From Wenjunlia tyrosinilytica (GTDB taxonomy: Bacteria > Actinomycetota > Actinomycetes > Streptomycetales > Streptomycetaceae), in contig NZ_BMMS01000016.1 of the NCBI RefSeq assembly GCF_014646055.1, forward strand, positions 124,001-188,000: a stretch of 64,000 nucleotides of DNA, written 5' to 3'. The position numbers and the translations under genes were made by a program. This document shows positions 46,484 through 55,711 of the stretch, piece by piece (position 1 is the first letter of the stretch; each line of letters opens with the position of its first letter). The notes below the pieces were generated by a model that was not told the origin of the DNA, did no database searches, and was given only the letters and a program-made list of their open reading frames with translations.

Positions 46484-47515
46484 ATGTCCCAGGTCGAATC
46501 AGGCAGCCGACGGCGCCTCCAGTGGCGCGCGTGGCGCCGCCCGCTGCGCTCGCCGGCCGCGCGCTGGGCCGTGGTCGGACTGGTGCTCACGGGAATGCTC
46601 GCCTGGTGGCTCGTCCCCTCCGATGCCACCCCCTACCGCAAGGGCACGATCTCCCTCGCCACCGGCGTCTCCAAGGGCGTGTACGCCAAGTACGGCGACC
46701 TCCTCAAGCCGCGAGTGGAGCGGGATCTGCCCGGGGTGCACATGACGCTGCACCCCAGCGCGGGCTCCGTCGACAACGTCCAACGGGTCGCCCAGGGACG
46801 CGACACCTTCACCATCGCGGCGGCGGACGCTGTGGCCGACTACAGCGGGCCGGGGGCCGGGCGGCTGCGTGCCTGCGCCCGGCTGTACGACGACTACGTG
46901 CAGCTCGTGGTCCCCAACGACTCCCCGGTCAGCTCGCCGCAGGACCTCAAGGGGCTGCGCGTCGGGGTGGGCGCGCAGGGCTCCGGGGTGTACCTGCTGG
47001 CCAACCGCCTCCTGCACGCCGCGGGTCTCGGCCGCAAGGACTCGATCCGCCCGGTCAAGGCGGGGATCGACCGGGCGCCGCGGCTGCTGCGCGAGGGGAA
47101 GCTGGACGCCTTCTTCTGGTCCGGAGGGCTGCCGACGGCCGCGGTCAGCGACCTGGCCAAGGAGCTCCCGATCCGGCTGGTGCCGCTCGGCCCGCTGGCG
47201 AAGCACCTGCGCGAGGAGGAGACCGACGCCGCCATCTACTACCGGCAGGCGACCATGCCCGGTGACGCCTATCCGAACGCCTACCCCTACGGCAAGTCGG
47301 TCTCGACGATCGCCGTGTCCAACCTCCTCGTGACCACCGACCGCGTCCAGGCCTCGCTGGTCGAGCGGCTGACCCGCAGCGTGATCCACAGCCGGGACAC
47401 CATCGGCCGCCAGGTGCACGCCGCCCAGCTCGTGGACGTGCGCACCGCCGTCTACACCGATCCGCTGCCGCTCCACGAGGGCGCCCGCCGCTACTACCGC
47501 TCGGTCAAGCCCTGA
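46484..47515 (+). CDS. TAXI-family solute receptor with N-terminal membrane anchor
   Basis: 343-residue relative of the TRAP-transporter receptors of the TAXI type, which bind small organic acids, glutamate or glutamine. Arg-rich start, one hydrophobic segment at about 28-45 ([16 protein letters not shown]), then the receptor: [95 protein letters not shown]. There is no cleavage site, so it is probably anchored outside. No dctQ/dctM-type permease genes are in the window. That makes transport unlikely and sensing likely. ATG 46484 is chosen; ATG 46475 is also possible. Next to the glutamate kinase-receptor gene. A palindrome (47513-47525) overlaps its stop. Confidence 0.85.
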
Positions 47516-47615
47516 GGTCACCTCAGGTCACATCCGAAGTCCCGCCACCCACCGCGGGGCTGCCGATAACGGACATTCCCATATGATTCAGCGCCGTTGG
47601 CGCGGGGGCACGGTG

Positions 47616-47666
47616 AGGTTACGGATCAGTGCCGTCATGTTCAGACAGCACTGATCCCCCTAACCT
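47616..47666. promoter_or_regulatory. Long leader hairpin or bipartite operator upstream of the kinase-receptor gene
   Basis: GGATCAGTGC (47623-47632) is exactly complementary to GCACTGATCC (47648-47657), with outer arms AGGTTA (47616-47621) and TAACCT (47661-47666). The 15-base loop is 47633-47647. The structure ends 31 bases before the start codon, so it could form in the mRNA leader, or serve as an operator in DNA. Confidence 0.6.
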
Positions 47667-47697
47667 GAACCCCTACAATTCTTCAGGGGGCTTGCGC

Positions 47698-49581
47698 ATG
47701 CGAACCGTGGGACCGACGCCGGGCGGAGATCCGCGCGGGCACGCCGGTACGGGGACGGGGTCGCCGCATGCCCTCATCGACAACCGCTACGAGCTGCAAC
47801 GCCCGTTGGGCCGCGGCGGCATGGGCGTCGTCTGGGAGGCCCTCGACACCCGGCTCAACCGCCAGGTGGCGATCAAGGAGCTGCTCTTCCGCGGCGCGGT
47901 CGACCCGGAGACGCAGGCCCAATGGGTGGAGCGGGCCAGGCGCGAGGCACAGGCGATCGCCAGGATCGGGCACGAGCACGTGGTCGCGGTGCACGACGTC
48001 ATCGAGGACGACGGCCAGGTGTGGATCGTCATGGAGCAGGTCAACCCCCGCTCCCTGTCGGATCTTCTGCGCGACCATGAGCGCCTGCCCGTGGCCAGCG
48101 CCGCCCGTGTGGGTCTCGAAGTGCTGCGCGGATTGCGGGCGGTGCACGCCGCCGGGGTGCTGCACCGCGATGTGAAACCGCACAATGTGCTCTTCCGCAA
48201 GGACGGCCGGGCGGTGCTGATGGACTTCGGCATCGCCACGTTCGAGGGCGCGGCACAGGTGACACGCCGTCATGAGACGGTGGGCACACCGCAGTACCTG
48301 CCGCCGGAGCTGGCCGTGCCGTGGACCAGGGAGCAGAGGACGGCGACTCCCGCCTCCGATCTGTGGTCCCTGGGTGTGACGCTGTACGAGATGGTCGAGG
48401 GGCGGGCGCCGTTCCGCGGGCCGACTCCGTTCGAGGTCCTGGAGGCGGTGCGCGAGGAGGAGCCCCCGGAGATGGTGCACGCGGGCCCGTTGCGCCCGCT
48501 GATCGAGGGGCTGCTGGTCAAGGATCCGGAGAAACGGCTCTCCGCCGAGCGGGCCGAGGAGTTGCTCCAGCACGTCGCCCAGGAGACCCCCTCCACGGCG
48601 CACTCGATCCCCCATCAGTTCTACGACCCCTCCGCCGCACCGGACCCCCCGAGGTCGGAGACCTCCCGGCTGCGGGCGGTCGGCCGTCCCTCCCGCAGGG
48701 TCCGCCGGGCCGCGGGCGCCGGCGCCCTGGCCGTCGCGCTGCTGGCGGGGACCGGCTGGGTAGCCGTGAATGTCTTCGGCAGCGACTCCGCCCCCTCCCT
48801 GCACCAGTCCGACACCTACCGGCGGGCCAAGCAGCTCGGCCTGCTGCGGATCGGCGTCAAGTCCGACCAGCCGGGCCTGAGCGAGGTGGTCAACGACAAG
48901 GAGGTCACCTACCGGGGCTTCGACATCGATATCGCCCACGCCATCGCCAAGCGGCTCGGCTTCCGGGAGGACCAGGTCGACTTCCAGGTGGTGAACACGG
49001 CCAGCCGTGAATACCGGCTGAGCCAGGGCAAGGTGGACCTGATAGTGGCCAGCTACAGCATCACCGACGAGCGCAAGAGGCAGGTGGACTTCGCCGGCCC
49101 GTACTACATCGCGGGCCAGGACTTCCTGGTGCGCAAGAAGGACACCTCGATAGACGGCAAGGAGGACCTGGGCGGCAAGACGGTCTGCACGGTCGACAAG
49201 TCAACCCCGGCGGCCCAGTTGCCCCTGCTCTCCCCCAAGCCGAATGTGACGCTGCGCAACCAGTACGGCAAGTGCATCGAGGCCCTGCTCGCGGGCGCGG
49301 TCGACGCGGTCAGCACGGACGATGTGATCCTCGCCGGCTACCGGCGCGAGCACCCGCGCGATCTGCGCCTGCTGGGCGACCCGTTCACCACCGAGGCCTA
49401 CGGCATCGGCCTGCCGAAGGACGACCCGGCGCTCAAACGCGCGGTCTGCGACGCGCTCAAGAAGGAAGTGGCCAACGGGGACTGGGACCGCTTCTACCGC
49501 AAGAACCTCAAGCCCCTGGACCCCGAGCAGTTGGGGGATCTGAGGCCGCCGGAGCCCCGCGAGTGCGGGGCCGCGCAGTGA
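47698..49581 (+). CDS. Transmembrane Ser/Thr protein kinase with extracellular glutamate-binding-type receptor domain
   Basis: Single chain of 627 residues. Cytoplasmic kinase at 28-300: P-loop LGRGGMGVVWEA (38-49), catalytic Lys in AIKEL (60), VLHRDVKPHNVL (156-166), DFG (176-178), VGTPQYLPPE, DLWSLGVTLYEM. Basic juxtamembrane segment 320-338 and one transmembrane helix at about 339-360. The outer domain (380-605) is a type 3 amino-acid-binding protein and is clearly a paralogue of the neighbouring GluB: both share DQPGL, GFDI-IA, DERK-QVDF/QIDF, GPYY-AGQD. GTG/TTG starts upstream exist, but ATG 47698 has AGGGGG nine bases before it. Convergent with gluK. Reading: an extracellular amino acid, probably glutamate, controls an internal kinase. 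Kinase targets are unknown. Mycobacteria split the same idea over GlnH, GlnX and PknG. Confidence 0.9.
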   Translation: MRTVGPTPGGDPRGHAGTGTGSPHALIDNRYELQRPLGRGGMGVVWEALDTRLNRQVAIKELLFRGAVDPETQAQWVERARREAQAIARIGHEHVVAVHDVIEDDGQVWIVMEQVNPRSLSDLLRDHERLPVASAARVGLEVLRGLRAVHAAGVLHRDVKPHNVLFRKDGRAVLMDFGIATFEGAAQVTRRHETVGTPQYLPPELAVPWTREQRTATPASDLWSLGVTLYEMVEGRAPFRGPTPFEVLEAVREEEPPEMVHAGPLRPLIEGLLVKDPEKRLSAERAEELLQHVAQETPSTAHSIPHQFYDPSAAPDPPRSETSRLRAVGRPSRRVRRAAGAGALAVALLAGTGWVAVNVFGSDSAPSLHQSDTYRRAKQLGLLRIGVKSDQPGLSEVVNDKEVTYRGFDIDIAHAIAKRLGFREDQVDFQVVNTASREYRLSQGKVDLIVASYSITDERKRQVDFAGPYYIAGQDFLVRKKDTSIDGKEDLGGKTVCTVDKSTPAAQLPLLSPKPNVTLRNQYGKCIEALLAGAVDAVSTDDVILAGYRREHPRDLRLLGDPFTTEAYGIGLPKDDPALKRAVCDALKKEVANGDWDRFYRKNLKPLDPEQLGDLRPPEPRECGAAQ

Positions 49582-49659: not shown

Positions 49660-51090
49660 TCACCACGTGTCCGTCGGCTCCTCCCGGGGCAGTGAGAGCG
49701 TCACCACGAGCCCCCTCGGGGCGTTCGCCGCGAACGAGATCTCGCCGCCGCCCGCGGTCAGGAGCGTGCGGGCGATGGACAGGCCGAGGCCCGAGCCGTT
49801 CACATTCTGGTGCCGGTTGCTGCGCCAGAACCGGTCGCCGACGCGGGCGAGTTCCTCCTCGCTCAGTCCGGGCCCCTCGTCCGCGACCGTGGCCGTCACC
49901 GCGCCGTCACGCCGGGCCACGCTCACCAGCACCCGGCCGCCCTCGGGGGTGAACTTCAGGGCGTTGTCGACCACGGCGTCCAGGGCGCTGGACAGGGCCA
50001 CCGGATCGGCCCAGCCGGTGGCCGCCGAGGGGCCCTCGAAGCGCAGGTCCACGCCGTCCCGTTCCGCGATCACACGCCAGGCCTCGACCCTTTCCGCGGC
50101 CAGGCCCGCGATGTCCGTGCTGTGCAGATCGGGCGTGGCGTGCTCGGCCAGGGCGAGGCCGAGCAGATCCTCCAGGACACGTGCGAGCCGCTTGCCCTCC
50201 TCGCGGACGCTGTCGAGTTCCTCCTCGTGGCCCCCGGGCAGTTCCATGCCCAGCGCCTCGATCCTCAGCAGGAGCGCCGAGAGCGGGTTGCGCAGCTGGT
50301 GGGAGGCGTCGGCGACGAAGGCCCTCTGCTGTTCCAGGACGCTCTCCACATTGTCGGCCATCTCGTTGAACGAGCCCGCGAGCCGCTGGAGCTCCGGTGG
50401 GCCGCCGGCCGCGGCGACACGGGAGGCCAGACGCCCGGTGGCGATGTCATGGGTGACCCGGTCCAGCACCCGCACCGGCCGCAGCACCCACTCGGTCAGA
50501 CGGACCGCTCCCAGCACGGCGAGCAGCATCGCGACGGTCTCCCCCGCCGCGACGAGCGCCCACGCGTGCAGGATCCGCGAGCGCATGGGGCCCGTCGGGG
50601 AGTCGGTGAGCACCACCGCGATCACATCGCCGTCCTGCACCACCGGCGAGGCCACGACGAGGCGGTGGTCCTGCCAGGGCCAGACCTGCTGGGGGTCGTG
50701 GCTGCGTCTGCCGTCCAGGGCCTCGTCGAACGCCCGCTGCACGTCCCGGTCGTTCCAGGGCACGATCCAGCTGGTCGGGGAGACGGCGTTGACCGAGCCG
50801 TCACGGGCGAAGACGCCGACCTTGATGCCGTAGAGGTCGTAGTAGCGGGCCAACTCGGCCTTGAGCGTCAGGCTCCGGTCGGGCTGCTCGGTCCTGGCTA
50901 TGGCCCTGGCGTCCCTGGGGTCCCTGGTGAGGTTCTCGGCGAGCGCGGCGAAGCGGGCGGTGTCGTCGATGCGGTCGACCACGACATGCTGCTGCTGCGC
51001 CCTCGCCTGGCTGATGGCGAGCGGCAGGCCGAGGGCGAGCAGCACACCTGCCAGGAGGGACAGCAGGATCGCGAGGAGCCGGGTGCGCAA
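49660..51090 (-). CDS. gluK: Sensor histidine kinase GluK
   Basis: Membrane kinase of 476 residues. Helix 1 at about 5-27, an extracellular sensor part of about 145 residues, helix 2 near 175-196, HAMP linker, then HisKA with phospho-acceptor His264 in FVADASHQLRNPLSAL, and an ATPase domain (DAVVDNALKFTPEGG, DEGPGLSEEE, GSGLGLSIARTLL). TTG start at 51090; GAGGTG is 9 bases before. It follows gluR by 6 bases on the same strand. The GluR-GluK pair in S. coelicolor was reported to sense glutamate and control gluABCD, which starts divergently here. I infer the same role from position and domain layout. Confidence 0.9.
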   Translation of the reverse strand: MRTRLLAILLSLLAGVLLALGLPLAISQARAQQQHVVVDRIDDTARFAALAENLTRDPRDARAIARTEQPDRSLTLKAELARYYDLYGIKVGVFARDGSVNAVSPTSWIVPWNDRDVQRAFDEALDGRRSHDPQQVWPWQDHRLVVASPVVQDGDVIAVVLTDSPTGPMRSRILHAWALVAAGETVAMLLAVLGAVRLTEWVLRPVRVLDRVTHDIATGRLASRVAAAGGPPELQRLAGSFNEMADNVESVLEQQRAFVADASHQLRNPLSALLLRIEALGMELPGGHEEELDSVREEGKRLARVLEDLLGLALAEHATPDLHSTDIAGLAAERVEAWRVIAERDGVDLRFEGPSAATGWADPVALSSALDAVVDNALKFTPEGGRVLVSVARRDGAVTATVADEGPGLSEEELARVGDRFWRSNRHQNVNGSGLGLSIARTLLTAGGGEISFAANAPRGLVVTLSLPREEPTDTW

Positions 51091-51096
51091 CGACGG

Positions 51097-51798
51097 TCAC
51101 ACCTCGGGGACGACGAGCCGGTATCCGACCCCGCGCACGGTCTCGATCAGGGTCGGCAGGCCGAGCTTGGAGCGCAACGACGCCACATGCACCTCGAGGG
51201 TCCGCCCTGTCCCCTCCCAGCTCGTGCGCCACACCTCGCTGATGATCTGCTCGCGGCGGAAGACGACGCCGGGGCGCTGGGCGAGCAGCGCCAGCAGGTC
51301 GAACTCCTTGCGGGTCAGCGCGACGCCCTTGCCGTCCACGGTGACCCTGCGGGTGGACAGGTCCAGGGCGATCGGGCCCAGGGCCGAATCGGAGCCGGCG
51401 GGCTCGTCGCCGCCCGCGGCCTCCGCCACGGTCTCGGACCTGCGGCTGACCGCGTGGATGCGGGCCAGCAGCTCCCCGGTGTCGTAGGGCTTGACCACGT
51501 AGTCGTCGGCGCCGAGGTTGAGGCCGTGGATCCGGGAGCGGATGTCGGCCCTGGCGGTGACCATGATGACCGGCACGGCGGTACGGCGGCGGATGCGGCT
51601 GCACACCTCGAAGCCGTCCTGGTCGGGCAGGCCGAGGTCGAGCAGCACCACACCGAACGGCTCCCCGCTGTCCGGCAGGAGCGCGCGCAGTGCCTCCTCG
51701 CCGCTGCGGGCGTGGGTGACCTGGAAGCCGTGCTTGCCGAGGACCGCGGAGAGGGCGGCGGCGACGTGGTCGTCGTCCTCGACGAGTAGCAGTCGCAC
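51097..51798 (-). CDS. gluR: Response regulator GluR (OmpR/PhoB type)
   Basis: 233 residues. Receiver domain (VRLLLVEDDDH; phospho-Asp54 in GVVLLDLGLPDQDGF; VTARAD; Lys in YVVKPYDTGELLARI) and a winged-helix output domain (LTRKEFDLLALLAQRPG, VFRREQIISEVWRTSWEG, TLEVHVASLRSKLG, VRGVGYRLV). The GTG start at 51798 follows GGGGAG. It probably activates gluABCD from the divergent spacer, where a heptamer occurs four times. Confidence 0.92.
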   Translation of the reverse strand: MRLLLVEDDDHVAAALSAVLGKHGFQVTHARSGEEALRALLPDSGEPFGVVLLDLGLPDQDGFEVCSRIRRRTAVPVIMVTARADIRSRIHGLNLGADDYVVKPYDTGELLARIHAVSRRSETVAEAAGGDEPAGSDSALGPIALDLSTRRVTVDGKGVALTRKEFDLLALLAQRPGVVFRREQIISEVWRTSWEGTGRTLEVHVASLRSKLGLPTLIETVRGVGYRLVVPEV

Positions 51799-51902: not shown

Positions 51903-52078
51903 TGAGCGGACTGTTACGCAGCCGGTACGGGGCACCCCGGGACCGCCTACCGACGTTATCCCAATGAGCGGCTCCGCGCCGCTGCCGCCCGTCGTCCACC
52001 GGCCCGCGCCCGCCGAGCACAAACCACACATGAGCGGTAGCGCTGAGTGTCCGGATCGTTATGCTCAACTTCCGCTCA
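51903..52078. promoter_or_regulatory. Four copies of heptamer TGAGCGG between gluR and gluA
   Basis: TGAGCGG at 51903-51909, 51965-51971 and 52031-52037, and inverted as CCGCTCA at 52072-52078. The last two face each other around the most probable gluA promoter (a TATGCT at 52060-52065). The 403-base spacer 51799-52201 holds no gene. These sites are candidates for GluR binding. Confidence 0.5.
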
Positions 52079-52201
52079 GATGTACTGACGCCCGAGTTTG
52101 GGGCTCATATGGTCTCTGCCAACCGAAGCGCCCGACGCATGACATGCACAAGCACGCTGCTGATCCGCGGTGCCGCGAACCTTTGAGGGAGCATCCCGTC
52201 C

Positions 52202-52978
52202 ATGAGCGAGGTTGATGTGACCAAGGACTCCGCCCCCGGCGGGGACGACCTGGTCGTACTGGAGAACGTGAACAAGCACTTCGGCGCTCTGCACGTGCTC
52301 CAGGACATCGACCTGACCATCGCCCGGGGCGAGGTCGTCGTGGTCATCGGGCCGTCCGGATCGGGCAAGTCCACCCTCTGCCGAACCATCAACCGCCTCG
52401 AGACCGTGGACAGCGGCACCATCCGCATCGACGGCGAACCTCTGCCCGCCGAGGGCCGTGAACTGGCCCGTCTGCGCGCGGACGTGGGCATGGTCTTCCA
52501 GTCGTTCAACCTCTTCGCGCACAAGACCGTCCTGGAGAACGTGACACTCGGCCAGATCAAGGTGCGCAAGGCCGCCAAGGCCAAGGCGGAGGAGAAGGCG
52601 CGTCAGCTCCTCGACCGCGTGGGCGTGGGGAGCCAGGCCGACAAGTACCCCGCGCAGCTCTCCGGCGGACAGCAGCAGCGGGTCGCCATCGCCCGCGCCC
52701 TGGCGATGGACCCGAAGGTCATGCTCTTCGACGAGCCGACGTCCGCGCTCGACCCCGAGATGATCAATGAAGTGCTCGAGGTCATGCAGCAGTTGGCACG
52801 CGACGGAATGACCATGGTCGTGGTCACCCATGAGATGGGTTTCGCCCGCTCCGCCGCCAACCGCGTGCTGTTCATGGCCGACGGGCGGATCGTCGAGCAG
52901 GCCAGGCCCGACCAGTTCTTCACGGCGCCGAAGAGCGACCGTGCGAAGGACTTCCTGTCGAAGATCCTCCATCACTGA
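52202..52978 (+). CDS. gluA: Glutamate ABC importer ATP-binding protein GluA
   Basis: 258-residue ATPase of a polar amino acid importer. Walker [10 protein letters not shown] (about 50-58), Q-loop [12 protein letters not shown], signature LSGGQQQR, Walker [15 protein letters not shown] and the H-loop VTHEMGFAR. First gene of gluABCD. ATG 52202 follows GAGGGAG. The chain has a short hydrophilic N-terminal addition of about 15 residues. Transcribed from the spacer shared with gluR. Confidence 0.95.
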
Positions 52979-53080
52979 ATCACCACTGAGCGCGCCAGCA
53001 CCCTCAAGCCTTCACTACCGTTCACCCTCCGAAGCGCCTCAATGACCGCCCGTGAGGGCGGCGAACCGCAAGGAAGTGTC

Positions 53081-54001
53081 ATGAAGCTCCAGAAGACCGC
53101 CCTCGTCGCCTGTGCGGCCCTCACCCTCCTGGCCACCGCCGCGTGCGGCAAGGAAGGCAGCCCGGACGACGCGGGCAGCTCCAAGAAGCCCGGCGGCAGC
53201 AACGCCCCCAAGGCGCCCGCCTACAAGGTGAACACGGCCGCCGACCTCAAGGGCTCGCCCGTCTGGGAGAAGATCAAGGGCAAGAAGATCACGATCGGCA
53301 CCAAGGCCGACCAGCCCGGCCTCGGCTTCGAGAACCCCGGCACCAAGGAGCGCACCGGCTTCGACATCGAGATCGCCAGGATGATCGCGGCGGACCTGGG
53401 CTTCGACAAGGACCACATCGTCTTCAAGACGGTCCCCTCCGAGGCCCGCGAGACCCAGATCTCCAGCGGCGGCGTCGACCTGTACGTGGGCACGTACACC
53501 ATCAACGACGAGCGCAAGAAGCAGATCGACTTCGGCGGCCCGTACTACGTCGCCGGCCAGGACCTCCTGGTCAAGAAGGACAGCTCCGCCAAGGGCCCCG
53601 AGGACCTCAAGGGCAAGAAGGTCTGCTCGGCCACCGGCTCCACCTCCCTGGAGCGCATCAAGGACAAGAAGTACGGCGTCAAGGAGGCCAAGGCGCAGCA
53701 GGGCTACCAGCTGTGCGTGCAGGACCTCGTCAATGGCACCGTCGACGCCGTCACCACCGACGACGCGATCCTCAAGGGCTACGCCGCCCAGAACGCCGGC
53801 GCTCTCAAGGTCGTCGGCAACCCGTTCTCCGAGGAGCCCTACGGCGTCGGCCTGAAGAAGGGCGACAAGGTCCTGCGCGAGGCGGTCAACAAGGCGCTCG
53901 AGGCCCACGAGAAGAGCGGCGACTGGAAGAAGGCCTACGACGCCACCCTGGGCCTGTCCGGCGCGGCCGCCCCGACGCCGCCGCAGATCGTCCGCTACTG
54001 A
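53081..54001 (+). CDS. gluB: Glutamate-binding lipoprotein GluB
   Basis: 306-residue receptor (SBP family 3). Lipobox at LLATAACGKEG (Cys22); the mature part begins with a Gly/Ser/Lys-rich tether. Domain blocks: IGTKADQPGLGFE, RTGFDIEIARMIA, SSGGVDLYVGTYTINDERK, IDFGGPYYVAGQD, GKKVCSATGSTSLE, EEPYGVGLKKGDKV. The outer half of the Ser/Thr kinase upstream is its closest relative in this window. Start ATG 53081 with AAGGAAG. A strong hairpin follows, so more of it is likely made than of GluC/GluD. Confidence 0.95.
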   Translation: MKLQKTALVACAALTLLATAACGKEGSPDDAGSSKKPGGSNAPKAPAYKVNTAADLKGSPVWEKIKGKKITIGTKADQPGLGFENPGTKERTGFDIEIARMIAADLGFDKDHIVFKTVPSEARETQISSGGVDLYVGTYTINDERKKQIDFGGPYYVAGQDLLVKKDSSAKGPEDLKGKKVCSATGSTSLERIKDKKYGVKEAKAQQGYQLCVQDLVNGTVDAVTTDDAILKGYAAQNAGALKVVGNPFSEEPYGVGLKKGDKVLREAVNKALEAHEKSGDWKKAYDATLGLSGAAAPTPPQIVRY

Positions 54002-54149: not shown

Positions 54150-54800
54150 TTGAACGTACTGCTGGACAACTTCGCGGCATTCCGCGAGGGGTTCTGGGGG
54201 ACCGTCGAACTGACGGGACTCAGTACGCTGCTCGCCCTCGTGCTGGGCACGCTCATAGCAGCGTTCCGCGTCTCTCCGGTCCCCGCGCTGCGGATCTTCG
54301 GGGCCACCTGGGTGACCCTGCTGCGCAACACCCCGCTGGTGCTGCTCTTCCTCGTCGTCACCCTCGGACTTCCCGCGCTCGGCCTCAAGGGCTGGGACTC
54401 GTTCTGGCTCGCCGTCATGGCGCTGGGCTGCTACACCTCGGCGTTCATCTGCGAGGCCGTCCGCTCGGGCATCAACACGGTGCCGGTCGGCCAGGCCGAG
54501 GCGGCGCGCAGCGTCGGGATGACCTTCACCCAGACGCTGGGCAACGTCGTCCTCCCGCAGGCCGTGCGCACGGCCATCCCGCCCATCGGCAGCCTGATCA
54601 TCGCGCTCGCCAAGAACTCGGCCATCGCCTCCGGGTTCAACGTGGTCGAGCTCGGCTCGGTGATGAAGACCCTCAACTCGGCGGCGGGCTACAACATCTA
54701 CGTGATCTTCTTCTGGATCGCGCTGTGCTACCTGATCATCACCTTCGCGGTCAGCGGCCTGTTCCGGCTGCTGGAGCACAAGCTGGCGGTGCCCCGATGA
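54150..54800 (+). CDS. gluC: Glutamate ABC importer permease GluC
   Basis: Membrane subunit of 216 residues with about five hydrophobic segments and the BPD loop EAARSVGMTFTQTLGNVVLPQA that contacts the ATPase. The start is TTG 54150 (LNVLLDNFAAFREGFW) with GGAG eight bases in front. Its stop overlaps the gluD start (ATGA). Confidence 0.94.
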   Translation: MNVLLDNFAAFREGFWGTVELTGLSTLLALVLGTLIAAFRVSPVPALRIFGATWVTLLRNTPLVLLFLVVTLGLPALGLKGWDSFWLAVMALGCYTSAFICEAVRSGINTVPVGQAEAARSVGMTFTQTLGNVVLPQAVRTAIPPIGSLIIALAKNSAIASGFNVVELGSVMKTLNSAAGYNIYVIFFWIALCYLIITFAVSGLFRLLEHKLAVPR

Positions 54801-55711
54801 GTTCCAGCGTCCTGTACGACGTCCCAGGCCCCAGGACCCGGCTGCGCTTCCGCGTCTACGGCGTCGTCTCCGTCATCGGCATCGCCGCGCTGCTCGCCTT
54901 CGTGGTCTACAAGTTCAACGACACCGGCCAGTTCCAGGCCGGGCTGTGGGACGACTACGAGTACTCCAACACCCAGCAGCGCATCGTCGACGGCCTCCTG
55001 ACGACCTTGAAGACCTTCGCTCTGGCGGCGCTGTTCTCACTCGCCCTCGGAGCGGTCCTGGCCTCGGGGCGGCTGTCGGACCACCGGCCCGTACGGGTGG
55101 TCTCCTCGCTGGTCGTGGAGTTCTTCCGCGCCATGCCGCTGCTGATCATGATCTTCCTGCTGTACTACGCGATCTTCACCACCAGCCCCATGTGGGCCGT
55201 GGTGATCGGGCTGACCCTCTACAACGGCTCGGTCCAGGCGGAGATCTTCAGGGCGGGCATCAAGGCCGTCTCCAAGGGCCAGAGCGAGGCCGGGTACGCG
55301 ATCGGGCTGCGCAAGACGCAGCTCATGGTGCACGTCCTGATCCCGCAGGCCGTCCGCTCCATGCTGCCGTCGATCATCAGCCAGCTCGTGGTGACGCTCA
55401 AGGACACCTCGCTCGGCTTCATCATCCTCTTCCACGAACTGCTCTTCGTGGGCAAGTCGTTCGCCGAGCAGACCCCTCCGGTCGGCGGTGTCTACGCCTT
55501 CATCCCGATGGTGATCGTCTTCGGCTCGATCTACATCGTGATGTGCCTGACGCTCTCCTCGCTGGCCACCTGGATCGAGCGGCGCACCCGCCGCAGCAAG
55601 AAGGGCACCCCTCCCCCGCTCGACACCCCCGCGACCCTGATGGCCGACCCGGGGCACACCGTCGAGTTCGAGCCGCGCGACGGGCGGCCGGAAGACCCGA
55701 AGGCCCTCTGA
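54797..55711 (+). CDS. gluD: Glutamate ABC importer permease GluD
   Basis: Membrane subunit of 304 residues. It begins with a hydrophilic piece and an extra hydrophobic segment (VVSVIGIAALLAFVVYKF), then the permease core with loop SEAGYAIGLRKTQLMVHVLIPQA. The C-terminal tail of about 45 residues is Pro- and charge-rich. Start ATG 54797 overlaps gluC. A hairpin terminator follows. Confidence 0.94.
   Translation: MSSSVLYDVPGPRTRLRFRVYGVVSVIGIAALLAFVVYKFNDTGQFQAGLWDDYEYSNTQQRIVDGLLTTLKTFALAALFSLALGAVLASGRLSDHRPVRVVSSLVVEFFRAMPLLIMIFLLYYAIFTTSPMWAVVIGLTLYNGSVQAEIFRAGIKAVSKGQSEAGYAIGLRKTQLMVHVLIPQAVRSMLPSIISQLVVTLKDTSLGFIILFHELLFVGKSFAEQTPPVGGVYAFIPMVIVFGSIYIVMCLTLSSLATWIERRTRRSKKGTPPPLDTPATLMADPGHTVEFEPRDGRPEDPKAL

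Follow-up and report, generated by a model that had tools for sequence, protein, structure and literature searches.

The window, a 64-kb stretch of the Wenjunlia tyrosinilytica genome (64,000 nucleotides), contains on its plus strand at positions 47698-49581 a gene, here termed SBPK, for a predicted receptor-type Ser/Thr kinase of 627 amino acids with an SBP_bac_3 sensor, as delimited by the open reading frame, Pfam matches and orthologs. Its upstream neighbour, also on the plus strand, encodes a membrane-anchored solute-binding protein of the TAXI family (TIGR02122/PF16868; 46475-47515), assigned by profile and structure match. Convergent with SBPK on the minus strand lies gluK (49660-51090), a sensor histidine kinase gene with HisKA, HATPase_c and HAMP domains that is named by synteny and homology, and next to it gluR (51097-51798, minus strand), which codes for an OmpR-type response regulator with Response_reg and Trans_reg_C domains. 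The transporter genes occupy the plus strand: gluA (ABC ATPase, 52202-52978), gluB (glutamate-binding lipoprotein, 53042-54001, with the same type of pocket residues as SBPK) and the permease genes gluC (54150-54800) and gluD (54797-55711); gluA and gluC were assigned by open reading frame and synteny. The neighbours gluK, gluR and gluABCD are present as an earlier note on this DNA had described them; the TAXI-family gene was missing from that note. The TAXI gene is easily overlooked, as an open reading frame on the opposite strand resembles a gene. This conserved minus-strand frame (46499-47521) was rejected as the upstream gene, being on the wrong strand and having no Pfam match; the plus frame encodes the TAXI protein.

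The SBPK protein is composed of a Hanks-type kinase domain (residues about 30-290; 47785-48567, plus strand), a single transmembrane helix (residues about 336-360; 48703-48777, plus strand) and a C-terminal sensor (48799-49578, plus strand). The kinase domain matches Pfam Pkinase (PF00069) with an E-value of 2.5e-51 and 175 bits (gathering cut-off 31.7), and the sensor matches SBP_bac_3 with an E-value of 1.5e-28 and 99.6 bits (cut-off 26.4). The GRGGMG, VAIK, HRD..K..N, DFG and [AP]PE motifs are complete in 24 of 24 aligned fusions, with a variable second P-loop residue in three of them; by fold score and intact motifs SBPK is a predicted Hanks-type Ser/Thr kinase. Exactly one hydrophobic segment separates the two domains by hydropathy, in SBPK as in each intact ortholog, and it forms a helix in the AlphaFold model. 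An arginine-rich segment (RRVRR) flanks this helix on its N-terminal side and, by the positive-inside rule, would make the kinase cytoplasmic and the SBP domain external, a location that the two conserved cysteine pairs of the sensor fit. Open reading frame, Pfam and hydropathy agree with the complete kinase, one membrane helix and outer domain that the earlier note had seen at this position and strand, and the domain architecture supports its proposal that one polypeptide does the whole job as a single-chain receptor kinase.

The ATG at 47698 is the preferred start over a longer GTG start at 47629, since it is closely preceded by a conserved TAACCT and by AGGGGGC, a ribosome-binding site. Both belong to a probable promoter and leader of SBPK's own at 47656-47697 on the plus strand (CCCCCTAACCTGA, with TAACCT at 47661-47666), which is similar in relatives; the CCCCTAACCTGA block upstream of the start recurs at other loci, including that of Wenjunlia vitaminophila, and its promoter role is putative. 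Directly upstream of the putative -10 lies a 10-bp perfect inverted repeat, GGATCAGTGC/GCACTGATCC (47623-47657), a possible operator or terminator.

When the SBP domain was modelled alone, the mean pLDDT was 93.9; the full-length AlphaFold model is of moderate confidence (pLDDT 73.4, pTM 0.45) and gave the same top structure matches. The top solved match of the sensor is 5eyf, an Enterococcus receptor with glutamate bound (Z 31.1), followed by M. tuberculosis GlnH with Asp or Glu (Z 30.9 for 6h1u, and 30.8); structures within 1 Z unit of the top are to be read as ties, and general amino-acid receptors stand close behind. The structure prediction that the earlier note had proposed hence places the sensor with glutamate- or aspartate-bound SBP_bac_3 receptors. 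Because the fold alone does not fix the ligand, the pocket residues were also checked. In M. tuberculosis GlnH the alpha groups of the ligand are bound by Ser164, Arg169 and Asp250, and the side-chain carboxyl by Arg147, Trp232 and Thr162 (PMC6069109). SBPK carries S454, R459 and D541 at the aligned alpha-group positions, so that the Arg and Asp whose loss would, according to the earlier note, have argued against amino-acid sensing are kept by alignment. At the positions of Arg147, Thr162 and Trp232 it carries R437, S452 and Y523, of which the Tyr is as in glutamate-bound 5eyf and the Ser for Thr is conservative. The pockets of 5eyf and of the window's GluB have T, R and D for the alpha groups and R, Y and T for the side chain. 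Three more distant SBP_bac_3 proteins of the same genome (L039, L040 and L041) are without the Arg at position 147. Since the aligned residues are of the same type as those of 5eyf, GlnH and GluB, and the three distant proteins are without this Arg, the alignment indicates that the SBPK pocket is of the acidic-amino-acid kind, and the sensor is predicted to bind glutamate or aspartate.

At two pocket positions the hydroxyl residue of SBPK is Ser in place of Thr, and behind the first cysteine SBPK has the loop KSTPAA where GluB has GSTSLE. Ligand affinity or preference may therefore differ. One conserved cysteine pair is common to the fusions and GluB, and a second is specific to the fusions, in nearly all members, being incomplete in L025 and L092. 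The pocket residues are kept in SBPK and in all other checked fusions except L092. This diverged kinase-SBP fusion (L092:8305-10188, genome G007) has the eroded pocket R G S L R L D and adjoins sugar-type ABC transporter genes for a binding protein and a permease.

A scan of named genomes located 13 loci in Streptomycetaceae, distributed over Wenjunlia, Actinacidiphila, Peterkaempfera, Mangrovactinospora, Streptacidiphilus and some Streptomyces. The twelve intact proteins, including the window's, align over their length with 56-72% identity to the window protein, and the closest ortholog is that of Wenjunlia vitaminophila. In Streptomyces sp. SPB162 (L027:9986-11927) the kinase-SBP gene lies in two frames, owing to a sequencing error or as a pseudogene. 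Outside Streptomycetaceae, no kinase motif was found in the checked long open frames of 198 scanned genomes of the class, a sample subject to an E-value limit, and a search of plasmid records for the fusion returned a kinase-domain match only. Values of dN/dS were 0.08-0.16 for the kinase, 0.12-0.43 for the SBP domain and 0.19-1.12 for the linker and helix (simple Nei-Gojobori, seven pairs). By these low ratios relative to the linker, kinase and SBP domains are both under purifying selection and thus maintained, with the sensor evolving faster than the kinase.

The SBPK sensor shares 38-43% identity with GluB proteins over the SBP domain, about 41% with the neighbouring GluB, which is far beyond chance. 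In a 60-row tree, a quick tree with some long branches (chiefly L091 and L092), the fusion sensors form one clade (SH-aLRT 97) that is apart from all GluBs and sister to GluB, and the SBPK sensor falls outside the GluB clade. On this phylogeny the fusion is old, and its sensor diverged long ago from GluB, the sister lineage. A recent duplication of the neighbouring gluB as the source of the sensor was rejected, given the separate fusion clade. The earlier note had called the sensor a copy of GluB; the similarity is real, but the sensor is a relative and no copy.

The order miaB, TAXI gene, SBPK, gluK, gluR, gluABCD recurs in the loci read, and the place beside gluRK-gluABCD is conserved in several genera, in keeping with the synteny that the earlier note had singled out. 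Of 121 Streptomycetaceae genomes sampled, 22 have SBPK in the interval from the TAXI gene to gluK; its absence in most of the other 99 means no match at E <= 1e-70, rather than a reading of the locus. A GluK ortholog occurs in 119 of the 121, most of them without SBPK, which indicates that the glutamate system does not need it, and in two genomes (G006 and G015) the locus is otherwise identical in layout but lacks SBPK. Mapped on a GluK+GluR tree, SBPK presence involves four changes, and the spread over outer branches fits an ancestral SBPK that was lost several times, the root of this tree not being fixed. SBPK is an optional branch, absent from some lineages. Because miaB and further genes keep their order too, adjacency by itself says little about a shared function, and the place of SBPK beside the glu genes may reflect general gene-order conservation. 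Diverged fusions are found away from glu genes in at least four genomes (G023, G007, G075 and G113); those at L161:2790-4934 (G113) and L152:1800-3806 (G075) have no glutamate transport genes nearby. Elsewhere, inserts of about 3-7 kb separate the kinase gene from gluK (L021:12007-15274, L022:11914-18973 and L093:7699-14588), and those of L022 and L093 contain another ABC ATPase gene. One genus has a second gluB-like gene downstream of gluD (L089:14171-15166 and L090:15321-16328), a lineage-specific duplication.

The gluR-gluA intergenic region contains a conserved element, CTCAACTTCCGCTCAGATGT (52064-52083, plus strand), which is likely a GluR site, given the reported binding of GluR to a motif that precedes gluA (PMC10345050). 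In the form CTCAASTTCNGCTCAGATGT this probable GluR operator or promoter is less recognisable in L084-L090, L022, L023 and L025. The match at 52064-52083 is the only one within the 64-kb window. Upstream of SBPK the element is absent, the best matches there being not clearly above shuffles. Control of SBPK by GluR through this putative site was rejected on that absence.

The TAXI protein scores 237.6 bits against TIGR02122 (cut-off 84.35) and has an N-terminal hydrophobic anchor. Its top solved match is 1us4/1us5, a 'putative GluR0 ligand binding core'. The identified neighbours of the gene include no TRAP permease. Where SBPK is lacking, the 1.5 kb read on the far side of gluK contained the TAXI gene in 17 of 18 gluK loci, and with few exceptions the Streptomycetaceae loci read have this gene next to gluK. 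As it is tied to gluK more constantly than SBPK is, the TAXI protein may be the real partner of GluK and a possible co-receptor.

Taken as a whole, SBPK is best explained as a membrane-bound receptor kinase whose ligand is glutamate and/or aspartate outside the cell, a reading to which we assign a probability of roughly three in four. The amino acid would be bound between the two lobes of the outer Venus-flytrap SBP domain. Lobe closure would alter the arrangement of the single helix, probably through dimerisation, the mode inferred for other receptor kinases with one helix, and this rearrangement would switch the cytoplasmic Hanks kinase on or off. Presumably, Ser/Thr phosphorylation of cytoplasmic targets would then let nitrogen or carbon metabolism track the external supply. 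We infer both ligand binding and its coupling to the kinase, as well as the topology. Such a receptor would run parallel to GluRK and the TAXI protein, and also to GlnH-PknG, a separate pathway that this genome encodes.

A rival reading gives SBPK a more local role as an accessory of the glutamate module, with GluR, GluK or the Glu permease as its phosphorylation target or with ligand being passed on to GluCD. SBPK lies beside and convergent with gluK in 22 of 22 glu-locus cases, 3-7 kb insertions intervening in only a few, and its sensor belongs to the sister clade of GluB. We nevertheless consider this role unlikely: GluK occurs mostly without SBPK, the gluR-gluA element is missing from the SBPK promoter, related fusions are located far from glu genes, and no Ser/Thr in GluR or GluK follows SBPK presence in the expected direction. 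The earlier note had listed GluR, GluK and the permease as possible substrates, and nothing found here points to them. A search for co-varying sites in GluR or GluK was set aside, as the only strong differences were Ser/Thr residues that are commoner without SBPK. About as doubtful is an action on the global nitrogen switch, with SBPK serving as a GlnR kinase in rich nitrogen or, as PknG does, acting at the 2-oxoglutarate node. In S. coelicolor, GlnR carries Ser/Thr phosphorylation when nitrogen is abundant, its kinases having been left for future work (PMC4977719), and SBP-coupled kinase signalling to glutamate metabolism has been described for GlnH-GlnX-PknG (PMC6069109); against this, the window genome has its own PknG and GlnH-like protein, and many Streptomycetaceae have no SBPK at the locus. 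GlnR is a candidate substrate, with nothing in the analysis linking the two. That SBPK links external glutamate directly to nitrogen regulators, GlnR for example, by phosphorylating them on Ser/Thr, and so is one missing nitrogen-rich kinase, appears somewhat less likely still.

The eroded pocket of L092 and the faster evolution of the sensor than of the kinase would be expected if the SBP domain were structural only, without amino-acid sensing, and the kinase answered envelope partners or the TAXI protein. This reading is improbable, given the intact pocket residues in SBPK and every checked fusion besides L092, and the purifying selection on the SBP domain. Least probable is that SBPK belongs to the StpK7 type and, in the manner of MSMEG_1200, keeps a nearby BREX-like defence island repressed. 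Although the StpK7 profile (NF052427) aligns over 53-619 of the 650-residue open reading frame with identical domain order, the score is 185.2 bits versus a cut-off of 900, none of the 25 relatives' genomes passes, and the neighbours of SBPK are glutamate genes, with no defence genes. Membership in the StpK7 equivalog was rejected on these scores.

The stimuli of bacterial Ser/Thr kinases have been termed an outstanding question (PMC6069109). A receptor in one chain, with a ligand predictable from a conserved pocket, would make ligand control of a bacterial kinase easily testable, and in Streptomycetaceae SBPK, if the receptor reading is right, would add a glutamate input to those of GluRK, the TAXI protein and GlnH-PknG. 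The surprise is limited by an architecture already noted in 2018, when Bhattacharyya et al. described kinase and SBP domains in one polypeptide with MSMEG_1200 as an example, a kind conserved in Mycobacterium and Streptomyces, and 260 further SBP kinases in InterPro (PMC6069109). MSMEG_1200 (StpK7) has been described to phosphorylate MSMEG_1198 and to determine susceptibility to phage TM4 (PMC13355554), so that the architecture, for which the earlier note had named no described function, has a precedent; a literature search on the annotation 'bifunctional kinase/glutamate SBP' found no paper in the collection searched. The architecture being known, SBPK appears from its sequence to be an uncharacterised glutamate-locus member with a predicted ligand.

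Among the known systems, StpK7 of Mycobacterium smegmatis likewise has a kinase followed by an SBP-type domain in one polypeptide, and the C-terminal half of its profile matches free SBPs; SBPK differs in its low profile score and its neighbourhood. PASTA kinases (PknB/PrkC/Stk1) share the kinase, single helix and extracytoplasmic sensor, but SBPK has no PASTA repeats by Pfam and reaches 235.9 bits with NF033483 (cut-off 450), over the kinase part only. GluB of gluABCD resembles the SBPK sensor in fold, pocket type, one cysteine pair and the level of identity given above, yet it is a free transport lipoprotein, whereas the fusion sensors form their own clade, nearly all of whose members have a further cysteine pair. 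Glutamate binding by GluK itself has been reported in S. coelicolor, where GluRK regulates gluABCD (PMC9739842); GluR-GluK shares glutamate sensing and the locus with SBPK, but is a histidine kinase/response regulator pair found in most genomes without it. GlnH-GlnX-PknG of M. tuberculosis and C. glutamicum couples an SBP to a kinase via separate proteins (PMC6069109) and has, like SBPK, an SBP_bac_3 Asp/Glu pocket with the same positions and a Ser/Thr kinase. The window genome also encodes a PknG, with an SBP that groups with GlnH about 3 kb away, and SBPK has no Pfam match to the TPR domain of PknG, which sets it apart from that family. GlnH-GlnX-PknG consists of three proteins with a soluble kinase, whereas SBPK unites sensor, helix and kinase in one chain.
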